Shown: positions 6,301 to 22,700 of the stretch, one piece after another
Layout of the letters: the number at the start of each line of letters is the position of its first letter
Numbering within the stretch: the first letter of the stretch is position 1
Origin: a virus
Reading direction: 5' to 3' (one strand)
DNA length: 37,098 nt
IMG/VR virus record: IMGVR_UViG_3300022074_000144
Coordinates: 1 to 37,098 of that record
The notes under the pieces: generated by a model
What the model saw: the letters and a program-made list of their open reading frames with translations, nothing else
What the model was told of the DNA's origin: nothing
Database searches by the model: none
Translations under genes and position numbers: made by a program

Positions 6301-8985
6301 TCTAAATGATATTGTTGCTTGTGATTGTCCATCTATTACAAACTTACCACCAGCTACAGTTACAACATATTCAACAATTACTGTATTGTTTTCTAAGTTA
6401 ATAGTTTTATTTGTAAGTGTTTGAGAGTCATCTAAATCTACAAGTGTTGCATCAGATACTGCTGTTTGAAACTCTGCAAGGGTACCTGATAATGTGTTAT
6501 CTGTTAAATCTATAGATTTATTTGTTAAAGTATCTGTAGAACTTTCTGTAACAACTGTAGAGTCTATAGCAAATGTAATAGCATTACCAGAACCAGATGT
6601 ATCAATACCTGTTCCACCAGTAAATGTAAGTGTTTCGCTATCTAAATCTATTGATAATGCACCACCACTATCACCTTGAAAATCTAAATCTTGTGCGGTA
6701 ACTTGACTATCTACATATGCTTTTACAGATTGCTGTGTAGGAACTTTAACTGCTGAGTCAGAAGACATGTTATCTTCATCAACTAAGAAATCTATATTTC
6801 CTATTTGAACTGCATTTGCTTGTATTGTCGCGGTTCCAGTTACATCTCCAGAACCATCAAAAGAAGCAGATGTCCAAACAACATCTCCTGTCATTCCAAT
6901 TGTTCTGCCTGTAGCTAAAGCAGTTGCAGTCGCAGCGTTACCTGTTGTAGAACCAGAACTTCCAGTAACATTACCAGTAACATTACCAGTTACATTTCCT
7001 TCTATGTTTGCTACTAATGTTGCTGTGTTGTAAGTTCCAGCAGAGGTATCTACAGTGCCTGTTGGTTCTGTAGTTAATCCATCAAATAATTTAAATTTAT
7101 TAATACCACTAGCATCCCAATGTAAACCAACATATTTAGTTGTAGAAGATTGTACAATTTTTCCGTAAAAACCAATATCAGTAGAGTTACCAGTATTATC
7201 TTTAGCAAACTTGAACATTCCATCACCGACAGCAACAGTGGTAGAGTCAACAGTAGTTGTAGTACCCTCAACTGTTAAGTTGCCAGTTATAGTTGCATTA
7301 CCTGCAACGCTAATATTTGTTGATGTTATGTCGTCTGATGTAAGAGTTCCATCAACACTTACATTGTTAAAAGTTACATTATCAGAAGTTCCTACTGCTT
7401 GTCCAATAGATATAGCTCCAGTACCATTGTTATAAGTAACTCCAGTACCACCAGATAAACTTGCAAGTGTTATAAATGCAGAGTTTGTATTAGAGTAATT
7501 AGCTAAATCATTATCAACAACAAAATCTATATTTCCATCAGTGTCATCATAAGATACAGTTATTAACGTTTCTGTTCCGTCTAACATACCTCCAACAAAA
7601 TCTTCTACTTGCTCTTGTGTTAGAGTTGCTGTAATAAATCCAGAAGTACTGTTGTCATAATTTGCTAAGTCATTATCTACAACAAAATCTATGTTGCCGT
7701 CAGTATCGTCATAAGATACAGTTATCAGAGTTTCTGTACCATCGAGCATTCCACCAACAAAGTCTTCAACCTGTTCTTGTGTTAATTGAGTATTTGTATC
7801 AGTAGCATCTAGTGTAAGTGTTCCTGCTGTATCATCATATGTGGCTGTTACATTTGTACCACCTACAATTACACCATTTACAAAATCTTCAACCTGTTCT
7901 TGTGTGAGCTGAGTGTTTGTATCAGTAGATGCAATTGTCAAAGTACCTGCAGCATCATCATAAGTTAATGAGACATTAGACCCTGCTGTAAGCAAAGAAT
8001 CTACTCTATCATCAACTCTTTCATTTAAATCAGTTGTTATTTCACTTAAGTCAGCTGATATTGTTAATTGGTCATTACTATCGTCATAACTGATATCTAT
8101 ACCTGATGTTGCTGAATCAACTAATAGCGTTCCTACTCTGTCGTCTACTCTTTCATTCAAGTCAGTAGTTATTTCTGATAAATCTGCTGTCAAGGTAAAT
8201 GAATTTGCAGCATCATCGTATGCTACATCTACACCATTTCCTCCAACTACAAAACCAGAACCTATTCTGTCATCTATTCTTTCATTTAAATCAGCAGTAA
8301 CTTCTGATAGGTCTGCAGTAAATGTTAATGTACCAGCAGTATCATCATAAGCTGTATCTACACCAGCACCACCAACAATAAGAGCATTTACTCTATCATC
8401 AACTTTTTCATCTGTATAGTAAAAATTAGAAGAGCCTTCAGTTAAATCATCAGTGGTTAATCCTGATAAGCTAGAGACTGTACCTGTTACATTACCTTCT
8501 AAGTTTGCAACTATAGTTCCAGCAGTACCACTGAATACTTCTGCAGCATTTGTTGCATCAGGTATAAAAACAAATTTTCCTGTACTATCATCAAATCCAA
8601 AGAAACCTAACTTTGGTGCTGAACCAGTATGGTATCTAAACTCAATACCTCTATCTTTATTATCATCTGACGCTGGTGCAGTATCTCCACCTAATGTAAA
8701 TATTGGGTCATCAACTGTTACTGTTGTTGAATTTACTGTAGTAGTTGTACCATCAACTTGAAGATTGCCTCCAACTACTAAGTTTCCTGATGTTTGTAAA
8801 CCTGCAAATGTAGGAGTATCACTTGTTCCTAAACCTAAACCCTCTAGTAAAGCAGCTAATGAAGCATAAGAACCACCTGTACCACCATCATCTAAACCTA
8901 TAAACTCAGTAGATTGAAGCTCAGCAAAACCAGTGGGGTTACCACTATTATCAAAATTAACTCTTACTGGTGTTTTTTCTGCCAT
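3385..8985 (-). CDS. Very large repeat-rich tail fibre protein (1866 aa) with cupredoxin-like domain
   Basis: Starts MAEKTPVRVNFDNSGNPTGF, an N-terminus typical of marine phage fibres. Four divergent copies of a module (GTTTTV...V.D..F.L... D.GI ... ending in or near LVANLEGNVTG) are spread along the chain. From about residue 190 to 500 lies an array of short beta-rich repeats with DLSEITTDLNERVDDRV and LTQEQVEDFV-GG/NG motifs. Residues ~867-975 form a cupredoxin-like domain with H912, C958, H961 and M964. Later units include KVPTQQSVKAYVDSQV and TLAVSGQSNVVADAATDTL, the latter shared with the 384-aa neighbour. The C-terminus (EGTVAAGPLDIQGTVDVQGS then LVVL) is paralogous to that of the 196-aa protein. 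It is coupled to the upstream gene by TAATG. Probably a long trimeric side or tip fibre. No S74 chaperone is present, so folding help may come from nearby small genes. Confidence 0.85.
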   Translation of the reverse strand: MAEKTPVRVNFDNSGNPTGFAELQSTEFIGLDDGGTGGSYASLAALLEGLGLGTSDTPTFAGLQTSGNLVVGGNLQVDGTTTTVNSTTVTVDDPIFTLGGDTAPASDDNKDRGIEFRYHTGSAPKLGFFGFDDSTGKFVFIPDATNAAEVFSGTAGTIVANLEGNVTGTVSSLSGLTTDDLTEGSSNFYYTDEKVDDRVNALIVGGAGVDTAYDDTAGTLTFTADLSEVTADLNERIDDRIGSGFVVGGNGVDVAYDDAANSFTLTADLSEITTDLNERVDDRVGTLLVDSATSGIDISYDDSNDQLTISADLSEITTDLNERVDDRVDSLLTAGSNVSLTYDDAAGTLTIASTDTNTQLTQEQVEDFVNGVIVGGTNVTATYDDTAGTLTLDATDTNTQLTQEQVEDFVGGMLDGTETLITVSYDDTDGNIDFVVDNDLANYDNSTSGFITATLTQEQVEDFVGGMLDGTETLITVSYDDTDGNIDFVVDNDLANYSNTNSAFITLASLSGGTGVTYNNGTGAISIGQAVGTSDNVTFNNVSVDGTLTSDDITSTNISVAGNATITGNLTVEGTTTTVDSTTVAVGDGMFKFAKDNTGNSTDIGFYGKIVQSSTTKYVGLHWDASGINKFKLFDGLTTEPTGTVDTSAGTYNTATLVANIEGNVTGNVTGNVTGSSGSTTGNAATATALATGRTIGMTGDVVWTSASFDGSGDVTGTATIQANAVQIGNIDFLVDEDNMSSDSAVKVPTQQSVKAYVDSQVTAQDLDFQGDSGGALSIDLDSETLTFTGGTGIDTSGSGNAITFAIDSTVVTESSTDTLTNKSIDLTDNTLSGTLAEFQTAVSDATLVDLDDSQTLTNKTINLENNTVIVEYVVTVAGGKFVIDGQSQATISFRPGVVHRFDLSDSSVASHPFVLSETSEGTAYTTGRTASGSQGQSGAYIEFTVNAATPDILYYYCSSHSGMGGTITVFGSAYGDADVQSYLSAGTGITLSGSGVIATTITQYSDSDAQAVSINNVVEDTSPQLGGNLDLNSNDITGTGNISTSGDVTLTSTDAGSSAGPIFNFVRDSSSPADADYLGQIKFKGDDDGGASTVYAKITGKIQDASAGSEDGLIEFANVKAGSNVITARLKSDTFQLLNGTGLEVAGNATITGDLTVNGTTTTIDTTNTVVSDSLIELGNGTSGSPANDAGIVIERGSSDNAFIGWDESADKFIVGTGSFTGASTGNLTISTGTLVANLEGNVTGAVTGNADTATALATGRTIGMTGDVVWTSASFTGAGDVTGTATIQSAAVETGMVNANVISGQSAYSGTVDTTNDFVLIYDHSTTSLKKIAVSDLNSASGAGTMSNFTIAADSGSNQVVADANTLTLTGGSGIDTSVGGTDEVTFALNTEAVQDIVGAMFSGNTESNITVDYQDSDGTIDLSVTGGGSVSEAFKTISVSGQSDIVADGATDTLTFVAGSNITLTTDASGDSITIASADTNTQLTQEQVEDFAANVVVAGANITKTYDDAAGTLTLAATGGAANAFSTLAVSGQSNVVADAATDTLTLVAGTGMTLTTDASADSITFTSSGGGGGGTMPFTDFDGTTDNIVLSSAATGGALPVTLAGGSSDPINMTGTTQTLTSYADDDGDTKIEVERTTDNDTVHIKAGGTDVITATSSGVTVTNLTVTGTTTQANELKITDTLFELNADGGSLTTDAGMIIERGSTGDNAAIIWDESTDSFVVGTTATDGSAAANLTVTEGDLKAKTQNQSDNSTKVATTAYVDTALGSLSSNSITDADSDTKIQVEEGSDEDIIRADTGGQERVTIDNNVSMAARGGFFTHNLAMHASETFTIASTEGTVAAGPLDIQGTVDVQGSLVVL
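5159..5193. repeat. 35-bp direct repeat, copy 1 (copy 2 at 6863-6897)
   Basis: An identical 35-base stretch (plus strand begins GAAGCAGATGTCC) recurs at 6863-6897. Both encode the segment GMTGDVVWTSASF of a duplicated fibre module. It is the longest perfect repeat I noticed in this gene and could support recombination that removes the intervening 1.7 kb in frame. Confidence 0.8.
6061..6387 (-). other. Cupredoxin-like (blue-copper type) domain within the fibre gene
   Basis: This stretch encodes about residues 867-975 of the 1866-aa fibre: IVEYVVTVAGGKFVIDGQ, SFRPGVVHRFDLSDSS, HPFVLS, AYIEFTVNAATPDILYYYCS and SHSGMGGTITVFG. H912, C958, H961 and M964 fit type 1 copper ligands. The H-to-C distance of 46 is close to plastocyanin's 47, and C-x2-H-x2-M matches amicyanin's short ligand loop. 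Metal binding is inferred. Confidence 0.65.
6863..6897. repeat. 35-bp direct repeat, copy 2 (copy 1 at 5159-5193)
   Basis: Perfect match to 5159-5193. The match continues beyond it with scattered synonymous changes through the TATALATGRTIG segment on the downstream side of the plus strand. Confidence 0.8.
7495..8420 (-). repeat. Array of diverged beta-repeat modules in the 1866-aa fibre
   Basis: Successive units carry the pattern V-D-D-R-V/QVEDFV, then a variable GG or AGS, then YDD-x-x-G-x-x-T/I. Four units use a DLSE-(I/V)-T-x-DLNER spacer and several use LTQEQVEDFV. The two units at 7495-7623 and 7657-7785 encode the same 43 residues, although their DNA differs at 23 positions by my hand alignment. 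Confidence 0.8.
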
Positions 8986-10139: not shown

Positions 10140-10411
10140 TAACCTACACCAGGTATCTCGCTATCAAAACTCCCTCCTAACTGACCATATATAAAAATCA
10201 TTCTATTCATTTCTTCCATAACTTCTTTAACTGCTCTATACCAATTTTCGTATTCTTGATGATTTTCATCAAGCCTATCAATCATTAATCCAAAATGCTC
10301 TCTTTCTAAATCTTCAATTCTTCTTAGAACATAAGCCATTTTGTAATCATGACTTATAAATCTATAAGGCATATGGAATTCATCTTTCTTTTTTTGATTA
10401 TCGTCAGACAT
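10139..10411 (-). CDS. Hypothetical helical protein (90 aa) between hub and fibre genes
   Basis: A charged, probably all-helical protein: MSDDNQKKKDEFHMPYRFIS followed by MAYVLRRIEDLEREHFGLMI and a Tyr/Trp-containing helix ending in a Gly-rich tail. No membrane segment or signal is visible. GGAGG precedes a TAATG-coupled start, and the gene is coupled to the fibre by TAATG. I do not recognise the family. A small coiled-coil connector or fibre-assembly chaperone is plausible from position. Confidence 0.7.
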   Translation of the reverse strand: MSDDNQKKKDEFHMPYRFISHDYKMAYVLRRIEDLEREHFGLMIDRLDENHQEYENWYRAVKEVMEEMNRMIFIYGQLGGSFDSEIPGVG

Positions 10412-13400
10412 TATCCCTCCAATGCTTCGATTCTAGCAGTTAAATCTGAATTCTGTGTGCTTAGTTCTTGTATTGCTTTTACTAATGGTGCAATTAAATT
10501 TTCTTGAGAATAATTATATTCATCGGATTCTGTGTCGTGGTTTACTAAATTGTACAGTTTACTTGTACCTAATTCAGGAAGCATTTCTTGTGCAATAAAA
10601 CCAAAAGTATGTTTATCATCTGCTTCAGTGAATTGTTCTGTTACAGTCCCTGTACAGTCTATTAAGACTTCTTCGTCATTCTCATCTACAGATTTTATTT
10701 CTGAATTACATTCTTGTGCTGATTCATATATCTGACCACAAATATCACAGGAAAAACCGCTTGACATAGATTTCCAAGTAAATTCTCTAGGTCTTAAATT
10801 ATTTATAAAATCTAAACCATAATCTATATCTGTAATATTTTCTTTTAATCTTTCATCAGATGTTGAAGACTCAGAAATTCTAAATACAGTAGCCCATCTT
10901 CTACTAGAACTTCCTAAGTTTTTACCACCATTAGTACTTGGTTGAAAATTTGAATATACTGTTGATGTACCTGTTCCAACAGTTAAACCAAAGCTACCGC
11001 CTGGTTTTAAATATACAAAGCTAGAAGCAAAATCTATAAGTGTTGAGCTGAGCCTATCATAAACTTGTGCTACTGAAGCATAACTAGTAGTTCTCACATA
11101 ACCAGTACCATTCATATTTCCAAAGTTTTGTAATTCTTGACCTGCTAAGTTTATTGGTCCAGACATACCAAGACCACCATTTCCAATATTAGCTGCGTCT
11201 AAAGTAGCAGTACCAGTTAAAGTATTTGCATTAAGTTGCCCAGATACATTAACATTGCTTAAATTTAAAGTACCAATATGTGTATCACTTAAAGCATTGG
11301 TTGCAACGCTACCACCATCAACTGCATTATCTTCTATCTTATCGTTGTTAATAGCATCATTAGCAATTCTATCTCTATTTATTGCACCATTTGCTATTTC
11401 ATTTATAATGTCAGTTGCACCAACACTTAAAGAACTAAAAGCTAAACTACCTGCAGTAACATCTGAAAAATCTAATGTACCACCAGATATTTGGTCAGCA
11501 GAAACAGTTCCAGTAAATGTGCCACCTGCAGCACTTAAGTTTCCAGAAAATGTACCTGTAGCAGCACTAAGTGCTCCTGAGAATGTACCACTAGCACCAG
11601 TTATATCTCCTCTAAAGTTACCTGTGTTAGCTTCAATAGTACCGTCAGCTTTTATTATCCAACCATCAGAACCTGAAGAGTAGTTACTAGATTTAATAAC
11701 AGCACTATCAGAAGTATTAGTACCAACAATTATTTCTTGACCAGCAATAGTACCTGCAGTAATTTTACCTGCAGTTAATGTATCTATTTTTGCATCAGTT
11801 ACAGCTAGGTTTCTTATCTTTGCTTCTGTTATAGCGGCATCAGATATATTTGCAGTAGCTACTAAATTACCATTAGCTGATTGTTCATCTGATGGAGAAG
11901 ATTCATTACCTGCATTATCTACTGCTGTAAATCTAAAGAAATGTGTAGAGCCATTAGGCATCTGTACTTCACCTACTACAGGTATCTGGTGTTTTATAGA
12001 AGCTGAACCAACATTTAATTCACCAACCTTATGTTGTTCTTTGTCATTTGCTGAGGATAAAGAAAAACCTGAAGAAGTTGATGCGTATACATTTAAATGA
12101 TGTGTATCTCTTTGTAGTGTAAAATTAACAATAGAACCTATAGCATTACCTGAATCATCTTCTGCTCTACCTAAATTATGTATTATCTGAACTCTTAGAG
12201 CTCCAGCTGCTATTGTTGCAGCAGGTCCTGGTTTAGATGGAGCATTAGTATCTAAAGCAGTAGTAACAGTTCCAGTCGCTGGTTCTGATGTATTAGCATT
12301 TGTTAGTATTGCAATAACTCTTACTTCGTAAGAAGTATTTAACTGTAATCCTTCAATTGTAAAATCATTAGTAGAACTCCAATTTATAAATGAAGATTGA
12401 TAGTCACCAGTTGTATTAGTTGGTTTCCAATCTATTTGATACTGTAAACCATTTTGAACAGGTGAACCATTATCATATGTAGGTTCTTCCCATTGAACAA
12501 ATATAATTGCATTATCTCTCCCTAAGTCATCCTGTACTGTTGCAGATGTAAGTTTTAAATCACCTTCAACTAAAGTATCGGGATGCCTAGGTTTTCTTAC
12601 TCCTGTCTGTCTAGTACCAGATACTACTCCTGTTACAGCAGAGCTAAATCTTAAATCTTCTCCTATACGTTTTTGTAAATCACCAATGTCTAACTGGGTG
12701 TTACCAGTTTCCCAAGAAACGTAATCTGATAAATCTATGTACTCCACTCTGTAGGGAGATGTTGAAGCAACTTTTCTAAGGTACACACCATATCCATCTT
12801 TGACTGGCCATGTTATTCCTGTAATTCTTATTTTTTCAGGATTAATAATTTGACCACGGTATGCTACTTCAAATAAAGAACTTCTACCATCTTCTATTCT
12901 CTTTGCTTCAGTATCTTCAAATCTTATTTCAGGGTCATAAACATATATCATATCTCCAACACTAAAGTCACCTTGTAAGTCATACTCTTCTAATGAAAGT
13001 GATAGAGTTTTCTTTACCTTCTTAAATTCATTTAGATAAGCTAGAGCTCTTTCATTTCTTTGAATATTAGGTATATTGTTTTCACCAACAAATTGTATTC
13101 TTTCTAAGTCAGCTCCAAATAAATCTTTATAAGGTGTGTTATTATCAAATGCTTCTGCATGGTCAGCTTGTTGTGATGAGCCTTCAGCTTGTGTGAGTAA
13201 CTCTACACCTGATACATAATCTTCTGCATCAAACTGTGCAGTAATTTGTTCTGGTGTAAGACCAGATATTGCTGGGTCTTCTCCAGATACATCTCTTACA
13301 ATTATTGCAGGTGGTTCATTTGTTCCATGACCTCCAAACAAAACCTCTTTTTTACCAGCATCTAAAGTTCCATTTGTATTTATTCTATATTCTGTTTCCA

Positions 13401-15189
13401 ACTGTTCAGAAATAGTATTGATTGCTGAATAAACTGACTCAACATAATGTTCCCCATTGTATAAACCTGTAGTAGAAGTAGTTGATAATTCAGAACTAGG
13501 AGCAGTAAAGTTAGCAGTATATAATGCAGTTCCCTTTGTTACTCTTAATCCATCAATATAACCTTTAAAGTAATCTGAACCTTGTGAACGACCAATTGAA
13601 AATTTTAAAGTTCCATCTCTTGTATTTCTTGTTATAGCTTTTGGAGATGTAAACTCAGAAACTTTTGTACCATTTTTAAAAGTTCTAAATACATTACCTT
13701 TTCTTGTAATAGCAAAATGATTCCATTGACCATAGTTAATTGTTCCCATAGATTTACCATCTGCAATATCCCAGATAGTTGTATCGGTACCACTTGATAT
13801 CGTGCTTTGTGAGAGAGATGAACGCATATAAACTTTAGATGTTCCTGCTCCATCTTCGTTAAGACCAATTATAAATGCAGGTGTTTGCCCATCAGGATTA
13901 GCTGCAAAAACAGCTCCATGATTAGTAGCACTTCTAGGTGCTTCAACTACATCTGCGCCATGATAAAACTTTTCATTTGGTTGCCAAAATTTAGAATAAT
14001 ACTTTTGATAGAGTGGGTCATTTTCATAGAAGGTTGTACTACCAGGTTCAGTAGCGTATATAGACCTGTTACCTGTGTAATAATCTGGAACATCTGTACT
14101 TAAGTTTGCAATTAATGCAGAACTTGCTCCTGTATGAAAGTCTACAGATGGTGTAAAAAATACTTGTTGTTCGTCTGATGCTACAGTTCTACTTGTAGAA
14201 TTTCTAGCACCAATTGAACCATCTAAACCAAAATCTACATTTTTTTTATTTTCAAAATATTCAACTGGTATTGTTGCACCTTGATACCAATCAGGTTGTG
14301 TTATTGGATTGATAGTTGTTGGAAATGTTCTTGAACCTGCTGTACCCACCAACTCATCTATATCATTATTTCTTCTATCTATCTGTGGTTTTACCCAAAA
14401 GTAAGTTCCATCTTTTCCAACAGAAGCTAACCACATTAGTGCATATGCAGCATTATTATATGCTGTTAAGTTAGCAGTAGCTGTTACTGAAGTGCCATCA
14501 ACTAATTTATATCTGTCTACAAAAAATGAATGTTCAAATCCAGCTTGTCCTTGATGAAAACATATAGCAACCATGAGGTCATAGTGTTTTTGTGCAAGTG
14601 TATTGTCATAAGGGAAAGCATCTTTATGGGAATTAAATACAGACTTAACTTTTGTTTCTACTGCAGATAATTTATCTTGTAGTAATTGGTCAGCTAATGT
14701 CGCAGAAAATACTTTAGTAGAATTAGTTGAATCGTTACCTGTATATTTTAATTTAATAGAAGCATTAGTAACTTGATTGCCAGCCTCATTTTTAAAGAAA
14801 CCACCAGTGCTGTTTGTAGCATTAGCATCATTAAATTCTGCAGGAAATATAAATGTTGTTCCGCCAATATCTATACCTGTATTGTAAACCTTATTAAATA
14901 AAGTATCTTTACCAGGAACACCATCAAGAGTTGTTCCGTAACCAATAGTTAAAGTACCTCTTATCTGTCCATGATAATTTGGGTCATATGGAACACGACC
15001 ATAAAAGTCACTTATGTAATTAGTTGTTGCATTTGATGGTTTAGGGTCATTATCTAAATACTGTAAACCTACTGCAGAAAATAAAGGATATCCATCATCA
15101 TAAACAAATGGTATATATTTTTCAGCTGATTTTATTTTGGTTAAACCAGAAGAAGATAAAGAAGCGTTAGCTAAATCAAACTGTGGCAT
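10411..15189 (-). CDS. Tail hub / central tip protein: lysozyme, LamG C-half, hub, Fn3, S74 chaperone (1592 aa)
   Basis: Residues 1-~285 resemble a GH24 (T4-type) lysozyme. E23, D32 and T81 (AEKYIPFVYDD ... LTIGYGTT) match the catalytic Glu-Asp-Thr, with a ~45-residue insertion between D32 and T81, and IDRRNNDID matches the late Arg-rich signature. Residues ~416-566 (APRSATNHGAVFAANPD ... YGQWNHFAITRKG ... YFKGYIDGLRVTKGTALY) are the C-terminal half of a LamG/concanavalin-like domain whose N-terminal half ends the upstream gene. Hub sequence follows (LETEYRINTNGTLDAG, FDAEDYVSGVELL, then VGDMIYVYDPEI), then one or two Fn3-like domains (~867-1105), GTFSG-type beta repeats (~1180-1245) and a Peptidase_S74 chaperone with S1444/K1449 as the expected Ser-Lys dyad. 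C1481, C1484, C1494 and C1512 form a four-Cys insert within S74. A short coiled coil ends the chain. Confidence 0.85.
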   Translation of the reverse strand: MPQFDLANASLSSSGLTKIKSAEKYIPFVYDDGYPLFSAVGLQYLDNDPKPSNATTNYISDFYGRVPYDPNYHGQIRGTLTIGYGTTLDGVPGKDTLFNKVYNTGIDIGGTTFIFPAEFNDANATNSTGGFFKNEAGNQVTNASIKLKYTGNDSTNSTKVFSATLADQLLQDKLSAVETKVKSVFNSHKDAFPYDNTLAQKHYDLMVAICFHQGQAGFEHSFFVDRYKLVDGTSVTATANLTAYNNAAYALMWLASVGKDGTYFWVKPQIDRRNNDIDELVGTAGSRTFPTTINPITQPDWYQGATIPVEYFENKKNVDFGLDGSIGARNSTSRTVASDEQQVFFTPSVDFHTGASSALIANLSTDVPDYYTGNRSIYATEPGSTTFYENDPLYQKYYSKFWQPNEKFYHGADVVEAPRSATNHGAVFAANPDGQTPAFIIGLNEDGAGTSKVYMRSSLSQSTISSGTDTTIWDIADGKSMGTINYGQWNHFAITRKGNVFRTFKNGTKVSEFTSPKAITRNTRDGTLKFSIGRSQGSDYFKGYIDGLRVTKGTALYTANFTAPSSELSTTSTTGLYNGEHYVESVYSAINTISEQLETEYRINTNGTLDAGKKEVLFGGHGTNEPPAIIVRDVSGEDPAISGLTPEQITAQFDAEDYVSGVELLTQAEGSSQQADHAEAFDNNTPYKDLFGADLERIQFVGENNIPNIQRNERALAYLNEFKKVKKTLSLSLEEYDLQGDFSVGDMIYVYDPEIRFEDTEAKRIEDGRSSLFEVAYRGQIINPEKIRITGITWPVKDGYGVYLRKVASTSPYRVEYIDLSDYVSWETGNTQLDIGDLQKRIGEDLRFSSAVTGVVSGTRQTGVRKPRHPDTLVEGDLKLTSATVQDDLGRDNAIIFVQWEEPTYDNGSPVQNGLQYQIDWKPTNTTGDYQSSFINWSSTNDFTIEGLQLNTSYEVRVIAILTNANTSEPATGTVTTALDTNAPSKPGPAATIAAGALRVQIIHNLGRAEDDSGNAIGSIVNFTLQRDTHHLNVYASTSSGFSLSSANDKEQHKVGELNVGSASIKHQIPVVGEVQMPNGSTHFFRFTAVDNAGNESSPSDEQSANGNLVATANISDAAITEAKIRNLAVTDAKIDTLTAGKITAGTIAGQEIIVGTNTSDSAVIKSSNYSSGSDGWIIKADGTIEANTGNFRGDITGASGTFSGALSAATGTFSGNLSAAGGTFTGTVSADQISGGTLDFSDVTAGSLAFSSLSVGATDIINEIANGAINRDRIANDAINNDKIEDNAVDGGSVATNALSDTHIGTLNLSNVNVSGQLNANTLTGTATLDAANIGNGGLGMSGPINLAGQELQNFGNMNGTGYVRTTSYASVAQVYDRLSSTLIDFASSFVYLKPGGSFGLTVGTGTSTVYSNFQPSTNGGKNLGSSSRRWATVFRISESSTSDERLKENITDIDYGLDFINNLRPREFTWKSMSSGFSCDICGQIYESAQECNSEIKSVDENDEEVLIDCTGTVTEQFTEADDKHTFGFIAQEMLPELGTSKLYNLVNHDTESDEYNYSQENLIAPLVKAIQELSTQNSDLTARIEALEG

Positions 15190-15190
15190 A

Positions 15191-15883
15191 TCACGGACTC
15201 AACCTGTATTCCCACCATTCAATAGTGAAATCTCTATCATCTAAATTTAAATCATTATTGTAATCTATTTGTACGTGGTCTGATGCTCCAGTTAATTCTA
15301 GAGAAGAACCACCAAATTTATTTTGGTCGGTTGATATCTGTGCATTATCAAAAAATGTTAAAGTTTGTCCTAAGGCAGAAGCGTCAGTAGTTGTTGTTGC
15401 TCCGTCACTACCATTAAAGTTTAATAAAAGAGTTGTATCTTCTTTAGATGGGTCAGTAATTGTTCCTGCTCTAATAGCTCTTTGTTTACCTTCATCACCT
15501 TCTCTCAATATTCCAAATGGTTTACCACTTGAGTTATCGAGAACAAAAGATAAAGTCTTTTCGTTATAAGTTCTTTTAGAAGATAAGCCACCTTTTTCAG
15601 CTATAGGTAATCCTCTTGTCTCACTATCACCTAAGTAAGCAATTAAACCTGTACCTTCAACTTCTACTGTTTCGTCTTGAATTGCTAATTCTGTAATAAT
15701 TCCTACATACTCAGCACTTGACAACATACTTGAATCATCAAGTTCATCTTCTGAGACACGGGCAGGCATTATAACAATATGCTCCCATGGTTCAATAGAG
15801 TTCACTATTGAGTTAGGTACTAAATCTATATTTAAAGAAACATTAAATGTTCCAGGTGCCATAAGTTTTTCTGTTACACTCAT
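15191..15883 (-). CDS. Tail hub N-terminal part ending in half a LamG domain (230 aa)
   Basis: Residues 1-~145 (LMAPGTFNVSLNIDLVPNSI, WEHIVIMPARVSEDE, YVGIITELAIQDETVEVEGT) resemble the N-terminal domain of siphovirus hub proteins of the Gp37-like type. Residues ~152-230 begin a LamG domain (LLLNFNGSDGATTTTDASAL, KFGGSSLELTGASDHVQID, DFTIEWWEYRLSP) and stop midway through it. The missing half is in the next gene after a ~415-residue insert. The stop TGA is followed one base later by the next ATG, a +1 frame change; the window in which a +1 slip could fuse the frames is only a few codons. The start overlaps the Dit stop as ATGA after GGTGG. The N-half must therefore associate with the next product, or a fused form is made. 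Confidence 0.75.
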   Translation of the reverse strand: MSVTEKLMAPGTFNVSLNIDLVPNSIVNSIEPWEHIVIMPARVSEDELDDSSMLSSAEYVGIITELAIQDETVEVEGTGLIAYLGDSETRGLPIAEKGGLSSKRTYNEKTLSFVLDNSSGKPFGILREGDEGKQRAIRAGTITDPSKEDTTLLLNFNGSDGATTTTDASALGQTLTFFDNAQISTDQNKFGGSSLELTGASDHVQIDYNNDLNLDDRDFTIEWWEYRLSP

Positions 15884-17154
15884 GCTTTCACCACCTTACA
15901 ATACTCAGATACATTGTCTAGATATTGGTCTCTGACACTATCACCAGTATCTGCGCTATTCAAACTTCCATTTGCTTGATAATATTCATAACCAATAAAT
16001 GTTTTAAATTGAGTACCACCTGTTGTTGGATAAATCATACCTCTTACTAAATCCTCAGTGAATGCAGTTGGTGAACCTAATAACCATTTGTTACCATCAG
16101 TATCTACAGCACCTGCTTTTATATAACCTGTATCTGTAGCTGCATCAACACTTGGGTCTTCACTTAAACTAAAGTTTAATCTAGATGTTTTTGGTGATTG
16201 ATTAAATATTATAGAAGCATGATGTGCTCCTCTTCTTAAAGAAATGTCCATAGTTAATCTATCTTGTCCACTAGCTTGGTAGTTGGATGTACATCTTATA
16301 ATTCCAAGCTCTGGTGTATTCCTTAGTATTTGTATTGTTTTCCATCCTCTGTATTCTGTTGCAAGTTGATTGCTTCCTGATGGAGTACCACGACTTACAG
16401 CCCATTCTTGTTCTGAACCATAACTAGTTGTATCCCACATTTGTGTAGTAATTCTTGATTGTGCAGTTGACGAACCTATTGTTATCTTTAATAATCCATT
16501 TTCAATTACAGCATTTGCAGATGTATTAGGTGAATTTAGACCATTCCTAATTTTAGAATCAGTTGTTATTCTTACTGCACCTTTATAAAAATCTTCAGGG
16601 TTAACATGATATTGAGCATTCTTTCCTCTTAAATTATTATCACGTTTTATTCTCATTGTAATTGTGTCAGTACCAGTAGTAGTAGTTAAATCACCAGCAA
16701 CCCTAGTACCATCTGTTGGGTCGCTCTCATGAAAATAATTAAAATGATTTCCAGGAGGAGAGTGAAATTGATTACTTGTAGATGTTATTGAATGCGCATT
16801 ATCAAGAAGTTTTCCTGTCATAACCGATTCTTTAACAACCTCTCCTACTTTGCCTAAGTATTCCATATCTATTGAGTAGTTAAAACCACCCATAGAATAT
16901 CTAGCAATATCTACTGAACTGTCTGTTACATAAACAAAACCATCAAAAGAAGAATCACCATCATACCTAAAAGGTACATACATTCCTGATTGAGCCATAG
17001 AAACTAATTCATCTCTTATAAATTTAAGTGTAGCTAAATCTGTTTCAGCTATCTTTCCAGATATTCTTAAATCTCTTGAACCACCACCACCAGAAAAATC
17101 TAAAGATGCTGGAGATGTGATATCTAATCTACCAATGTGTACTTGATTTGCCAC
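15880..17154 (-). CDS. Distal tail (Dit)-like protein, extended (424 aa)
   Basis: GTG start at 17154, overlapping the tape-measure stop as TAGTG, with GAGGAG upstream. The N-terminal ~115 residues look like a Dit: HIGRLDITSPASLDFSGGGG, IRDELVSMAQSGMYVPFRYD, GFVYVTDSSVDIARYSMGGF and DMEYLGKVG. The remaining ~300 residues form a beta-rich extension (ITMRIKRDNNLRGKN, KTIQILRNTPELGIIRC, SIIFNQSPKTSRLNFSLSED) that I do not recognise. Such extensions in Dit proteins often bind host carbohydrate, but nothing here proves it. Position between tape measure and hub is exactly that of Dit. Confidence 0.75.
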   Translation of the reverse strand: MANQVHIGRLDITSPASLDFSGGGGSRDLRISGKIAETDLATLKFIRDELVSMAQSGMYVPFRYDGDSSFDGFVYVTDSSVDIARYSMGGFNYSIDMEYLGKVGEVVKESVMTGKLLDNAHSITSTSNQFHSPPGNHFNYFHESDPTDGTRVAGDLTTTTGTDTITMRIKRDNNLRGKNAQYHVNPEDFYKGAVRITTDSKIRNGLNSPNTSANAVIENGLLKITIGSSTAQSRITTQMWDTTSYGSEQEWAVSRGTPSGSNQLATEYRGWKTIQILRNTPELGIIRCTSNYQASGQDRLTMDISLRRGAHHASIIFNQSPKTSRLNFSLSEDPSVDAATDTGYIKAGAVDTDGNKWLLGSPTAFTEDLVRGMIYPTTGGTQFKTFIGYEYYQANGSLNSADTGDSVRDQYLDNVSEYCKVVKA

Positions 17155-20100
17155 TAATTTCTCCTCAATCCAGTTCCTGCGGAACCTTCTTTATCTAATT
17201 TTCTTAAAGCTTTACTAATTTGTACTGCTGCTTTCCTAGCTGATATAGGGTCAGATGGAACACCAGTAACATTAACATTAAGATTATTTACCACTGTACC
17301 AGATTTACCTGTACCTAGAGGTTTTACTAAAAATCCTGAACCTGGTACAAATCTTACTTCTTCAGGTCCATACTCACCTACAAGAGCTCTAGTCATTGGG
17401 TCTCCTCTTCCACCATATCTATAACTTGAAACTCTGCCTCCCATACCCATACCAGGTACAGCACCACTCATACTTGCAGCTACCCTAGTAAGAAAATCCA
17501 TAAAACTTCTAAATACATTTCCAATTGAAGACTCACCACCAGGTATATTTAGTTCATCTCCTGGTGAAAAGAAACCTACACCTCCTTTAGAAATTGGAAG
17601 GTCAGGGTTTTGTCCAGGTGTATCTATAACATTAGACCCTTTACCAAATCTTGCATCGAAAAAAGCTTGTTCTTCTTTCATTTGTTCAATAAAGTTTATA
17701 TCCAATAAGCTATCTTTTATTCTGTTCATATGTTCTTCGATAGCAGGAGTTTGTGAAATTAGATTTGCTACAAGCTGGTCTGTTCCATTTATAATACCTT
17801 GGATTGAATCAGTAGTGTCTCCATATACATTATTTAAATTTCCTAATCTAGTTAAGTATTCACCATCGTTAGCAATAGTATCTTCTAGTTTTCCTGTAGA
17901 GTCTAACAATCTTAAATCAGCATTTACTTCATTTTCTTTTGCTCTAGTTACACCATCTATTGCCATTGTAAGATTTAAACTGGATAGTTCTAGTTCATCT
18001 CTAAGTTTTATATCTTCTTCTCTGAGGCTTATAAGTTGAGGGTCAGTCTCTAATGCATCTTCTTTAATTTTATTTAAATCTTTTTCTGCTTGAGCTAATT
18101 CAAGTATTGCTAATTTTCTTTCATCATCAGATAAATCAGTACCTTTCATTCTTGCTAAATCTTCTTCTGCTGCTTGCAATTCTAAATTACTTATGACACC
18201 TTTATTTGCCATAGCTCTTAAGTCTTGAATATTTTCTTCTGCTTTTTGAATTGCTAGAAGTTCTTTTGCAGATTTGTTACCACCAGCATTTTTTAATTTA
18301 TCTTCTAAAGATATTTTTTTACGAAGTATATTAATTTCTTCATTAAGAGTAATGTTGCCTTTAGCTCCTTCTATTTCTAGCTTATTCAACTCTTTCTGAT
18401 TATTGATAATTCTTTCTGTTAAGGTAGCATTGTTTCTTCTTTCCTGATTTAACTGTTGCTCAGCTTTAATTCTTGCAGCGGCTGCAGATGCTACTCCTCT
18501 TTGAGCACTTCTAAAATCAGTTATTAAAGAAAAATCTTCCTGTGCTTGAGATACTGCTCCCCTAAGAGCTTCTACAAATACTCTTTCTAAATTTTGCTGA
18601 CCATCTTTAATACCCTCAATAACACCTTGTATAAGTGGATGACCTATAAGCTTTCTAGTTTTATCAGAAGGAGAATCTATATCATTATCTTCCATAACTT
18701 TTTCAATTGCTTGTTCTACAGATTCAGAGAATACCTCAGCTATATCATCTTGTTTATTAAATATTCCTACAATAAATCCATCAGCTAAACCTTCACTTGC
18801 TTTTTCAAACTCAGATGCATTATCTTTAAGCATTTTTGAGGCAGCCTCTGCTAGCTCTGGACCAACTGATTCCATCAATCTACTTTCTAGTCCAGCTGCT
18901 AAGCCAGGCATATTGACAAAATCTTGAGCAACTCTAAGAGCTGAAGGACCTATTTCTGATAATTGTTTTGCAACAAGAGGGCTCTGAAGTGCTATCTGAC
19001 TTATAAGTTTATTAAATACACCAGTCATTTCTAAATTGTGTTCTAAGTTTTCTATAAATTTTTGTGCAGTCATACGTGCTGCTTCAGGCAATTTATCTAG
19101 TGTACTAATAGCTCTATTAATTGCACCCTCAAAATTATCATCAATAGTTTGTGCAATATCTCCAAAAGCTAATTCCATTCCTTCTATAGATTCTTCTAAG
19201 CTATCTACAGTTCCGCCAGCTTCTTTTGCTTTTTCTCTTATAATATCCATTACCATGCCAGAAGCTTTTGCAAAGTTTTCTTGCTTAGTAGCATCTAGAG
19301 TTTGATTTTCTTGCATCAATCCTTGTGTTACTAATAGTTCTTGTTGCCTATTAAGAAATTGACCTTTGGCTTCAAGTAATTTACTAGATTGCTCAACCTC
19401 TTGTCCAGACACCATCTGTCCAAGATTTGCTCCTGTGGTCTGTTCAATAACATCTGTGTATAAACCTAAAGTATTTACTACATTTTCTAAATCACTATCT
19501 GGAATATTTAAACCTAGATTTTGTAATATAGTATTTTTTTGACTCTTAGTACCGACTTTATTTAAATCTTGCATTAAAGGAAGTAACTCACCAGCTTTTG
19601 AAATTCTTTCTATTTGTTTATCAACAGCTCTATCACCAGTACCTCCACTAATTAATTCTTCTAAAACACTGTCAACAGTTGGAAGCCCACCTGATTGAAT
19701 GTCTGTGACTAATCCTGATAGTCCGCCAAAAATTTTTGATTCTAAATTAGTTGCATCTAAACCTGCATCCTCTGCAAATTTTTCTATATCTTTTTCTAAA
19801 CCTTTACCACCCTTTTGACCATATAGTAATGTCTGAAGAAGTCCACCAGCATCTCCTCTAGCTTGTGCTTCATTACGTGATATCGCCTTCTCTGTACTAG
19901 CAATCATTTCATCTATAGCATCAGTTACTTCTTGAGGAGCTCCTTCATTTTTCTTTAATTCTTTTAAGTCAAGTAACTCTTCAAGTGTTAATTTGTGAGA
20001 TTCTAGTTCTAATATGCTTTCAGTAATTCCATCAAGCCCATTTGCAAACTCATCCATACTTCTTTTTCTTGCACCAATTCTTTCAAATATAGAAAATATG

Positions 20101-22028
20101 CCACTTATAGCAGCTGTGGCTACAAGCATAATACCTATAGATTTAGCAAATCCTATAACAGCAGCTGTTGCAGTTCTCGCTGCAATAGAAAGACCAAGCA
20201 TACCGCCTTTCATACGCTCTGTGAGAACAATAGTTCCCTTACCAGTCTTATTGAATTTCATGATTGCGTTATCCATATTTCTCAAAAACATATCACTATC
20301 ACTAAAAGCTTTATTAAGTTTAAGGAATCTAAAAGTTGCTATTTTTCCACCACCAGATAATTGCTTTAAAGCTCTAAATGCTTCTTTTGTTCCACCTTGA
20401 ATTGTTCCAATACCTCTTTGAAATAAAGTAGTTGTTTGAGTAACAGTTCTTTGTGTTTCTTCAAAATGTTTACCTTGAACTTGAGTTGTTTGTGTACCAA
20501 ATCTACTTAAGAAACTACCAGGAGTAAAAGCTTTTTTACTTTTATCTCTTGCAAATGTGTCCCCAAGATTTTGTGACAGACCACCAGTAAAGAACATACC
20601 TCCCATTCCTCTTTGACTTTTGAAAAGTAATCTTTCTTGTTCAGCATTTAAGCTAGAAACACCCATTGTTAATCTAGATATAGCAGCTTCTGCCTCTAAA
20701 GTTCCTTGTGCCATTGTTTTAAAAGCTGCTCTTAATCCAAATATGCTTCCACCAATAACAGTAAACACTGTACCTATTCTGCCAATACCTTTAACCCTCT
20801 TGTCGAAATCTGTTAAAAATGTTAAGAAATTTGCTAAGCCTTGAACAGCGTTATTAATTGTTGGTAAAAATTGTTCACCGAAAGATATAGCAGATTCATT
20901 TACAATATTTTTTAAAATCTTAACTTGAGATGCAACTGTTTCATATCTTCTTTCAGCTTCAGTAAGTAATGCATTATTCTCTTTAAATTCTTGATTAGAC
21001 ATAGCAAGAGCTTCACTAAGTAGCCCACCACCATCTGCTCCTTCAGCTCTACTTAATGCCTGTATTGCTCTTCTAGTTCTAATTTGACCTAAACCAATTT
21101 CTTCTAGTATTGCAACAGCATCATCACCTCTGTCTTCTACCTCACCTAAGCCTTCTATAAATCCAGCTAATGCTTGTCCAGGGTCTATTTCAAATAACCC
21201 CTTAAATGCTTCTACAGTCATACCAGCAGTCTGTGCTACTATTTGTAATCTTTTACCACCAACACTAGTTAATCTATCTACTACTTGAACTAATCTAATT
21301 ATCGCAGTTGCACCTGCTTGAGCTGGCTGACCAACTGCTCTTAGAGCCGTAGCAAAAGCAACAGCATCTGTTGCAGCGTTATTAAAATCTGAAGCAATAC
21401 CTGCAGTAGCAGTTGCTATTTGTGTTGCAGCGGTAACAATTTCTGATTCAGTAGTAGCAAAGTTGTTACCTAATTTTACAATTACAGAAGCTAGATTATC
21501 TACTTCACTTGCTGCAAGACCTGTTATTTTTTGAAGCCTTGCTAATGACATTGCTGCATCTTCTGCAGACATATTTGTAGCAACTGTTAGTTTTTGAATT
21601 GTGTCTGTAAACTTTACGATGTCTGATGCAGCTATACCTAACTGTCCACCAACTGCTGCTATTTGAGTTAACTCATTAATACCTGCTGGTGAAAATTTTG
21701 CTAGAGACCTTAGTTGTAATGCTATATTTGCAAAGGCTGCTTCAGCTTCTTTACCTTCTTGTTTGATGTCTAATGTTTTCTTAACGTTAGCGAATTGTTC
21801 TTCGAATCTTACAGCTGCCATACCACCTAAAGCAAAAGCACCAACCATTGCAGCACCAAATGGAGCTATAGATGTTCCTATTGCCTGAGAGAATGCACTA
21901 CCTGCTTTACCTACACGATTAGACATTAGTTGCATGTTTCTACCAACCTCACGGGTTGCTTGATTCATTGCACCTTTATCAAAGCCTGCTCTAAGCTTTA
22001 TGTCTATGATTCCAGCAGTATTTGCCAT
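17154..22028 (-). CDS. Tape measure protein, TP901-type (1624 aa)
   Basis: Sets tail length and is threaded through the tail tube. The N-terminal ~370 residues match the TP901 core: VRFEEQFANVKKTLD, LAKFSPAGINELTQIAAVGG, GIAASDIVKFTDTIQKLTVA and ATALRAVGQPAQAGATAIIR. Hydrophobic segments lie near residues 60-80 and 605-652, as expected for tape measures that may touch the host membrane. Long heptad-like helices fill ~1150-1420 (EEDLARMKGTDLSDDERKLA). The C-terminus has the familiar YGGRGDPMTRALVGEYGPEE pattern. At about 1.5 Å per residue, a commonly used rule, the tail would be roughly 240 nm, long for a siphovirus. The start lies one base after the G-T stop. Confidence 0.95.
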   Translation of the reverse strand: MANTAGIIDIKLRAGFDKGAMNQATREVGRNMQLMSNRVGKAGSAFSQAIGTSIAPFGAAMVGAFALGGMAAVRFEEQFANVKKTLDIKQEGKEAEAAFANIALQLRSLAKFSPAGINELTQIAAVGGQLGIAASDIVKFTDTIQKLTVATNMSAEDAAMSLARLQKITGLAASEVDNLASVIVKLGNNFATTESEIVTAATQIATATAGIASDFNNAATDAVAFATALRAVGQPAQAGATAIIRLVQVVDRLTSVGGKRLQIVAQTAGMTVEAFKGLFEIDPGQALAGFIEGLGEVEDRGDDAVAILEEIGLGQIRTRRAIQALSRAEGADGGGLLSEALAMSNQEFKENNALLTEAERRYETVASQVKILKNIVNESAISFGEQFLPTINNAVQGLANFLTFLTDFDKRVKGIGRIGTVFTVIGGSIFGLRAAFKTMAQGTLEAEAAISRLTMGVSSLNAEQERLLFKSQRGMGGMFFTGGLSQNLGDTFARDKSKKAFTPGSFLSRFGTQTTQVQGKHFEETQRTVTQTTTLFQRGIGTIQGGTKEAFRALKQLSGGGKIATFRFLKLNKAFSDSDMFLRNMDNAIMKFNKTGKGTIVLTERMKGGMLGLSIAARTATAAVIGFAKSIGIMLVATAAISGIFSIFERIGARKRSMDEFANGLDGITESILELESHKLTLEELLDLKELKKNEGAPQEVTDAIDEMIASTEKAISRNEAQARGDAGGLLQTLLYGQKGGKGLEKDIEKFAEDAGLDATNLESKIFGGLSGLVTDIQSGGLPTVDSVLEELISGGTGDRAVDKQIERISKAGELLPLMQDLNKVGTKSQKNTILQNLGLNIPDSDLENVVNTLGLYTDVIEQTTGANLGQMVSGQEVEQSSKLLEAKGQFLNRQQELLVTQGLMQENQTLDATKQENFAKASGMVMDIIREKAKEAGGTVDSLEESIEGMELAFGDIAQTIDDNFEGAINRAISTLDKLPEAARMTAQKFIENLEHNLEMTGVFNKLISQIALQSPLVAKQLSEIGPSALRVAQDFVNMPGLAAGLESRLMESVGPELAEAASKMLKDNASEFEKASEGLADGFIVGIFNKQDDIAEVFSESVEQAIEKVMEDNDIDSPSDKTRKLIGHPLIQGVIEGIKDGQQNLERVFVEALRGAVSQAQEDFSLITDFRSAQRGVASAAAARIKAEQQLNQERRNNATLTERIINNQKELNKLEIEGAKGNITLNEEINILRKKISLEDKLKNAGGNKSAKELLAIQKAEENIQDLRAMANKGVISNLELQAAEEDLARMKGTDLSDDERKLAILELAQAEKDLNKIKEDALETDPQLISLREEDIKLRDELELSSLNLTMAIDGVTRAKENEVNADLRLLDSTGKLEDTIANDGEYLTRLGNLNNVYGDTTDSIQGIINGTDQLVANLISQTPAIEEHMNRIKDSLLDINFIEQMKEEQAFFDARFGKGSNVIDTPGQNPDLPISKGGVGFFSPGDELNIPGGESSIGNVFRSFMDFLTRVAASMSGAVPGMGMGGRVSSYRYGGRGDPMTRALVGEYGPEEVRFVPGSGFLVKPLGTGKSGTVVNNLNVNVTGVPSDPISARKAAVQISKALRKLDKEGSAGTGLRRN

Positions 22029-22029
22029 A

Positions 22030-22700
22030 TTATTTACTCTTCACGTTCTTTACAAATTCGTCTAAACTTATAGTATCACGAGGTCTATTTCTTCCTCGTC
22101 TTCTATCAAGCTCTTTCTTCCACCAGCCTTTAGGTGGGTTTGCTTCACCTGTTTCATAATCTGGTGTATATTCTTCGCCATTAACAATGGCATTATATTG
22201 TGGTAAGTAAAAAGAAGATTTATCTACTGGTAAGTAAGATAATAAAGTCATAAATTTTCTCCAGCTTAGAGATAAAGGGTCATCAACTTTGTAGAATCTT
22301 TGAAAGTCAGATTCAACAGGACCCCATCTAAAAAAGATGTCTCTATAGGAGAAACTTATTTTGGGTTATCGTCCTCACTATCTGCTGTCTCTAATTCTTC
22401 ATTCTGACTAATGCCATACTTTTCGAGTAACCAATTAAGTAGTTCTTCGAGTTGCGGCCAAGTTGCACCTTTTGAAATTAATTCATCAAGTGTATCTTCA
22501 CCGAGTAATGATTCTAGCCATTCAGGTATTACAGATGTAGGTACTACCCCAGTTTCATCCATATACCTCATTTGTGTTAGAACTACTCTTGCAGGTATTT
22601 GTCCTGGTAGAGTATATTTTTTACCAATCATGGTAAATTCTAATTCTTTATTTTCAGACTCTGATATACCTTTATCAAAATCCATATAATTGTCAGCCAC
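22030..22700 (-). CDS. Tail assembly chaperone G-T fusion made by -1 frameshift (223 aa)
   Basis: Shares the first 114 residues with the shorter product. At C-CCA-AAA the ribosome can slip -1 to CCC-AAA and then read ATA AGT TTC..., giving ISFSYRDIFFRWGPVESDFQ and on through MTLLSYLPVDKSSFYLPQYN to a basic end (DRRRGRNRPRD ... NVKSK). I checked codon by codon that this -1 frame is open for 109 codons to TAA, one base before the tape-measure ATG. A G/G-T pair just upstream of the tape measure is the conserved arrangement in long-tailed phages: the rarer fusion binds the tape measure and recruits tail-tube protein. The distal 73 residues also have their own ATG (22251) but no independent role is needed. 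Confidence 0.85.
22356..22700 (-). CDS. Tail assembly chaperone G-like (114 aa)
   Basis: GTG start at 22700 with a strong AGGAGG five bases upstream. The protein (KELEFTMIGKKYTLPGQIPA, ... TLDELISKGATWPQLEELLN, LLEKYGISQNE) has the size, helical content and position of siphovirus gpG-like chaperones between the major tail protein and tape measure. It terminates at TAA directly after the CCCAAAA slippery site, so most ribosomes would make this short form. Expected partners are the tape measure and the major tail protein. Confidence 0.85.
   Translation of the reverse strand: MADNYMDFDKGISESENKELEFTMIGKKYTLPGQIPARVVLTQMRYMDETGVVPTSVIPEWLESLLGEDTLDELISKGATWPQLEELLNWLLEKYGISQNEELETADSEDDNPK
22359..22365 (-). 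promoter_or_regulatory. -1 programmed frameshift slippery site CCCAAAA
   Basis: In the G frame the sequence is GAT AAC CCA AAA TAA. C-CCA-AAA is a perfect X-XXY-YYZ heptamer lying directly before the stop codon. Both tRNAs can re-pair in the -1 frame as CCC and AAA. The -1 frame is open into the T extension. I saw no strong downstream stem-loop. Confidence 0.85.

Follow-up and report, generated by a model that had tools for sequence, protein, structure and literature searches.

The locus described here raises the question of whether a siphovirus tail hub can be interrupted within one of its own domains by a lysozyme and be made, over long periods, as two polypeptides. The window, by which we mean the whole stretch of DNA analyzed, is a virus contig of 37,098 bases from IMG/VR whose HK97-type head genes and siphovirus tail module all lie on the minus strand. 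Along that strand, downstream of the tape measure gene (17154-22028), come a gene for a 424-aa protein (15880-17154) and then two open frames, ORF1 and ORF2, so that the window has the gene order of gp27/Tal/gpJ-type hubs (tape measure, next tail gene, hub). ORF2 encodes, in order, a lysozyme module, a linker, the second half of a LamG domain, the remainder of the hub, fn3, a tail-tip region, and a Peptidase_S74 chaperone, with the lysozyme module and linker together accounting for about 415 aa at its start. The features of the locus are the following.

15191-15883, minus strand: ORF1, 230 aa, hub N-terminal domain and first half of LamG (open frame, relatives)
15476-15883, minus strand: hub N-terminal region, ORF1 residues 1-136 (alignment to split and unsplit hubs, with 44-80% identity to both)
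15197-15475, minus strand: first half of LamG, ORF1 residues 137-229 (profile built from unsplit LamG)
15203-15205, minus strand: AGG codon for the Arg of WWEYR (codon comparison of split with unsplit loci)
15187-15193, minus strand: junction, with TGA at 15193-15191, one base, and the ATG of ORF2 at 15189-15187 (sequence)
10411-15189, minus strand: ORF2, 1592 aa (Pfam and relatives)
about 13945-15202, minus strand: inserted segment, missing from unsplit relatives (alignment to these relatives, gap map)
14290-15189, minus strand: GH24 lysozyme-like module, ORF2 residues 1-300, with E23, D32, and T81 (weak Pfam match, Foldseek, alignment)
13945-14289, minus strand: linker of ~115 aa from the lysozyme module to LamG, the least conserved part (alignment)
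13471-13944, minus strand: second half of LamG, ORF2 residues 416-573 (Pfam Laminin_G_3 and profile)
12574-13464, minus strand: remaining hub domains, ORF2 residues 576-872 (alignment across the three hub classes, fold matches of the relative L062)

Small genes at 22030-22251 and 22356-22700 precede the tape measure gene, and one of them matches tail assembly chaperone profiles. Direct repeats of 129 bases (8132-8365; 1.8 copies, 78% match) lie inside a gene for an 1866-aa fibre-like protein.

Viral contigs were searched with ORF1, the hub N-terminus, and the insert as queries, and 27 hubs related to ORF1 were found. The first-pass annotation had proposed looking among relatives for an uninterrupted hub, and this search recovered hubs with an unbroken LamG and no insert, as well as hubs without LamG. 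Three hub classes can accordingly be distinguished: one without LamG, which reads ...RKGTITEP...TYTGKHY... at the LamG site; one with an unbroken LamG, which reads ...EWWEYRTSSSGNPTVMARNNDT... at the same place; and one, including the window, in which the lysozyme module interrupts LamG immediately after WWEYR. ORF1 ends in ...DFTIEWWEYRLSP, and in the alignment the unsplit relatives continue uninterrupted across the break (...DFTIEWWEYR-TSSSGNPTVMARNNDT...), while in the window the second half of LamG resumes at ORF2 residue 416, at about position 13944. All 25 insert-bearing contigs, the window included, share one break point, directly behind WWEYR, which is therefore not due to chance. The length of ORF1 is 229-232 aa in split loci wherever it was measured from the start, and it is constant even though identity between split members drops to 44% in ORF1 and 32% in the lysozyme region.

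To ask whether the two stretches belong to one domain, a LamG profile of 235 positions was built solely from unbroken-LamG relatives and searched in 17 split genomes. In all 17, ORF1 matched from profile position 1-4 to 93-94 and ORF2 from about 90-142 to 221-233 (E 1e-16 to 1e-28), and this search found no second significant LamG copy in any of them. The window itself matched at positions 1-94 of 235 with its first half (E 2.5e-28) and at positions 141-229 of 235 with its second (E 4.2e-28), the two halves taken together thereby matching the profile of the whole domain. Similarly, phrog_3545 is tiled by both frames, ORF1 residues 138-227 corresponding to its positions 738-828 and ORF2 residues 453-572 to 859-980. 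Pfam Laminin_G_3 (PF13385) matched ORF2 residues 436-551 (E 1.7e-11, 45 bits), and the N-terminal half on its own had no Pfam match. As judged from these profiles, the stretches in ORF1 and ORF2 are complementary halves of LamG and not two LamG domains. Relatives with two complete and independent LamG domains, which would have contradicted the first-pass annotation, were sought and none were found, and its placement of the second half at residue 416 of the next protein agrees with both the profile tiling and the alignment to unsplit hubs.

To evaluate the hub fold with both halves present, we modeled the relative L062, read through its TGA; the underlying alignment includes unbroken-LamG relatives, and the structure alignment was built with trimmed ORF2 pieces. 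The model reached a pLDDT of 63 and a pTM of 0.42, with many strands in both halves at a pLDDT of about 70-94. It matched 3cdd (a gp27-like hub, the MuSo2 43 kDa tail protein), 8k35 (lambda tail tip, gpJ), and 7zhj (T5 tail tip), with E values for the hub matches of 6e-6 to 4e-3, and Foldseek also returned LamG-type matches. Those Foldseek alignments of this modest-confidence model that are of sufficient length to cover both LamG halves have rmsd values mostly above 15-20 Å. Through this relative, the predicted fold is that of a gp27/Tal/gpJ-type hub.

The first-pass annotation had placed between the halves a segment of ~1.25 kb encoding a GH24-type lysozyme and ~130 further residues, and several lines of evidence bear this out. 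The insert occupies about 13945-15202 and carries E23, D32, and T81, with the Asp nine residues after the Glu as in T4 lysozyme; from their order and the Glu-Asp spacing, we take these residues to be the equivalent of the T4 lysozyme triad, and the Glu-Asp-Thr triad of GH24 is accordingly present in the window. The Pfam Phage_lysozyme model (PF00959) matched the window at E 4e-4 with 21.2 bits, against a cut-off of 22.3. Across the family it gave E ≤ 1 in 12 of 19 split records, the window among them, and in 0 of 26 unsplit records; its score was above the cut-off in 2 of the 19, and there was no match in seven of them. A profile of the insert itself found nothing in the 26 unsplit records. 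An AlphaFold model of ORF2 residues 1-575 from the window had a pLDDT of 56.5 overall and about 60-90 over a helical core, and its best PDB matches by Foldseek were GH24 enzymes, the SpmX muramidase 6h9d (TM 0.80, E 3.5e-4) followed by the phage endolysin 7m5i (TM 0.73), with AbLys1 and T4 lysozyme lower. The model thus predicts a lysozyme fold for the insert.

The proposal that the hub had acquired a wall-cutting enzyme stands in part. The triad is intact in the window, whose insert may well have lysozyme activity, but about half of the split members lack the catalytic residues. According to the alignment, one clade (L006, L007, L009, L062, and L064-L069) has Ile or Val in place of E23, Thr or Ser in place of D32, and Val in place of T81, and a further member, L078, has Val in place of the Glu and Arg in place of the Thr, with the Asp kept. 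The members that have lost the triad form two separate branches on the hub tree, indicating that the GH24 triad was lost twice while the module was retained, an observation new to this work. The residues are gone together in both branches, as expected if they form an active site. Within the clade, pairs of sequences still show a dN/dS of about 0.10-0.16 in the lysozyme region, and the module is therefore probably kept there for a role other than catalysis. The alignment also reveals that the module of L006, L007, L009, L062, and L065-L069 contains an extra segment of ~30 residues (KPSPADYPSGVDPNN...VVNGVKVTW or a variant of it), which is missing from members with an intact triad.

A hub tree was inferred from the hub columns alone; it is unrooted and gives no direction for gain or loss of LamG. 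The split class lies on one side of a branch with support of 100/100, as does the unbroken-LamG class, and the hubs without LamG fall in two groups. The tree of the lysozyme region is broadly congruent with the hub tree, except for the long branch of L016. Because the split clade has full support (100/100) and the two trees broadly agree, the data fit a single origin of the insert followed by long vertical inheritance. Together with the uninterrupted relatives, the profile tiling, and the conserved break, this upholds the central claim of the first-pass annotation, that a lysozyme was inserted inside the LamG of a tail hub. A search of a phage collection found neither the hub nor the insert in any isolate phage, and a host search in bacterial genomes gave no match; the carriers are one lineage of uncultured bacterial viruses.

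A second fission was also observed among relatives (L004-L007, L009, L013, L016, L017, L062, L066, L067, L116, L117, and L121), in which the hub chain stops near ...AGSVHIG and the distal fibre is encoded by a new gene, both parts being fused in the window. The separate distal fibre genes begin MAIHIDTDGN... or MANFNVD..., and several contain the S74 chaperone.

We next consider whether the two LamG halves are still functional as a unit. It is conceivable that LamG is merely broken, its halves decaying or folding apart, and that the hub works without it, since some related hubs have no LamG and presumably function nonetheless. This is difficult to reconcile with the selection acting on the halves. 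Estimates of dN/dS were 0.04-0.22 for the N-terminal half and 0.04-0.20 for the C-terminal half, low even at high synonymous divergence, and were 0.10-0.22 for the lysozyme region and 0.08-0.45 for the linker. These values indicate that purifying selection acts on both LamG halves and on the enzyme region. Neither half is truncated, moreover, and together they tile the profile in each of the split genomes tested, which makes a simply broken LamG improbable. With both halves complete and under purifying selection, and with the break conserved, their assembly into one LamG is likely.

The junction between the frames provides evidence on how the two chains are made. The distance from the ORF1 stop to the ORF2 start in relatives is 0, 2, 5, 7, or 9 bases. 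Among split loci, ORF2 is found in each of the three possible frames relative to ORF1. In L062, L064, L065, and L066 the frames are in register and are set apart only by TGA or TGA TAA, a single TGA being all that separates them in L062. ORF2 opens with MPQF in each of the 25 insert-bearing contigs. Of the 23 split loci listed, 21 use AGG for the Arg of WWEYR, and the 22 unsplit loci all use AGA, against a background for AGG of 10% of Arg codons in split hubs, the compared rows being related and the counts not independent; from this difference, the AGG is possibly part of the initiation or ribosome-binding signal of ORF2. A strong Shine-Dalgarno sequence precedes ORF2 in several loci (AGGGAGG in L007, L009, and L067; also strong in L016), and that of the window is weak. 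The arrangement suggests that translation of ORF1 and ORF2 is likely coupled. As a separate observation, a rare Pro codon, CCG (used for 10 of the 455 prolines in these hubs), stands directly before TGA T at positions 15194-15196 of the window and likewise in L002, L004, L005, L013, L116, and L121, and could represent a recoding or reinitiation signal.

The recurrence of this CCG, and the fact that one TGA alone parts the frames of L062, raise the alternative of programmed recoding, in which a +1 shift at CCG TGA T or read-through of the stop would sometimes give a single chain of LamG-N, lysozyme, and LamG-C. However, the frame relation is variable, some loci have tandem stops (TGATAA), and no single event could serve the family; a shared frameshift or read-through therefore cannot maintain the arrangement. 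The invariant MPQF start and the strong Shine-Dalgarno sequences just before it in several loci likewise argue against recoding, which we regard as very improbable. Since every possible frame relation is represented, the halves are most likely two chains with separate translation starts and not the product of a frameshift, in line with the earlier suggestion that the hub is made as two polypeptides. It is hardly credible that the insert represents a mobile intron or intein whose excision from the mRNA or protein restores a continuous LamG, given that, for all its presence at one exact site and absence from relatives, it is coding throughout, is under purifying selection, and supplies the start codon for the second half, and that an identity as self-splicing intron or intein was rejected when Rfam gave no intron or RNA element in the region or the whole window and Pfam gave no Hint, intein, or homing-endonuclease domain.

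Based on the data presented above, we favor, with a probability of roughly 0.78, a siphovirus hub of two cistrons with nested LamG and lysozyme additions, whose halves assemble and place the lysozyme at the tail tip. The nesting, the position of the break, the layout in two cistrons, the conservation, the selection, and the disappearance of the catalytic triad can be read directly from the sequences; the joining of the halves into a single sandwich, the place of the hub in the virion, and the activity of the lysozyme are inferred. In this reading, a gp27/Tal/gpJ-like tail hub was elaborated by nested additions, with a GH24 lysozyme-like frame entering the LamG loop after the WWEYR strand. The incoming frame brought its own start codon, and its 3' end became fused in frame to the second half of LamG, which left the hub as two adjacent cistrons, probably translationally coupled. 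ORF1 supplies the N-terminal part of the hub and the first LamG half; the lysozyme, the second LamG half, the central fibre, and all other hub parts come from ORF2. The chains most likely join to form a single beta-sandwich from the two LamG halves, and the lysozyme would be displayed from a loop of this sandwich at the tail tip of the virion, where it would cut peptidoglycan during entry. In the two sublineages without catalytic residues, the module probably binds the wall or has a structural part. In support of two separate chains, the in-register stops of L062, L064, L065, and L066 have been retained although a fused chain is only one or two stops away. One could speculate that the split is needed and not just tolerated, the break allowing the lysozyme arm to be mounted or moved during entry with a benefit that outlasts the death of the enzyme; we consider this tentative proposal rather unlikely.

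With the simpler states persisting in relatives, the locus documents the elaboration of a hub by insertion of a domain within a domain, and the hub has long persisted as two chains broken inside a beta-sandwich. As a naturally evolved split, this LamG is a candidate two-part assembly, and the lineage allows one to test directly whether retaining a tail lysozyme module pays once the active site has disappeared.

Several known systems share individual elements with this hub. T4 carries a GH24 lysozyme at its tail hub (gp5/gp27), where the gp5 chain exists as two pieces bound to each other. There, however, the lysozyme lies between the OB domain and the spike beta-helix and the pieces arise by proteolysis, whereas here the gene is broken inside the LamG sandwich. 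Two-chain legume lectins, such as pea lectin, form a jelly-roll fold from two polypeptides through protein processing; the chains described here come instead from separate cistrons and have a third domain between them. The muramidase domain of SpmX (6h9d), the closest solved structure to the insert model, is likewise a GH24 domain in a non-endolysin context, but SpmX is a cellular protein found outside phage tails, while the insert is part of a tail hub. In siphophages, 'evolved Tal' hubs have carbohydrate-binding modules inserted in the gp27-like N-terminal domain, and 'evolved Dit' proteins have them in the Dit loops (PMC7291167). Unlike in 'evolved Tal', the hub insert here is of the LamG type, a lysozyme interrupts this insert in turn, and the hub consists of two chains with the break inside the inserted beta-sandwich. 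Split genes whose products reassemble are known from nrdA of phage Aeh1 (mobE insertion) and gene 43A/43B of phage 25 (PMC2988022). As in those systems, for which association of the products has been demonstrated, an insertion cut one gene into two cistrons; their genes were interrupted by a homing endonuclease or, in the case of gene 43, perhaps by an untranslated spacer at an earlier stage. In the present hub the insert, a lysozyme-like module, is joined to the second half, and the protein that has been split belongs to the virion. The first-pass annotation knew of no standard example of a tail lysozyme nested in a broken LamG, and the open-access literature searched likewise held no match for a lysozyme nested in the LamG of a tail hub. 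Each element therefore has precedents, and it is their combination, a lysozyme within an inserted LamG, fused to its second half, in a hub of two chains, that appears to be new.
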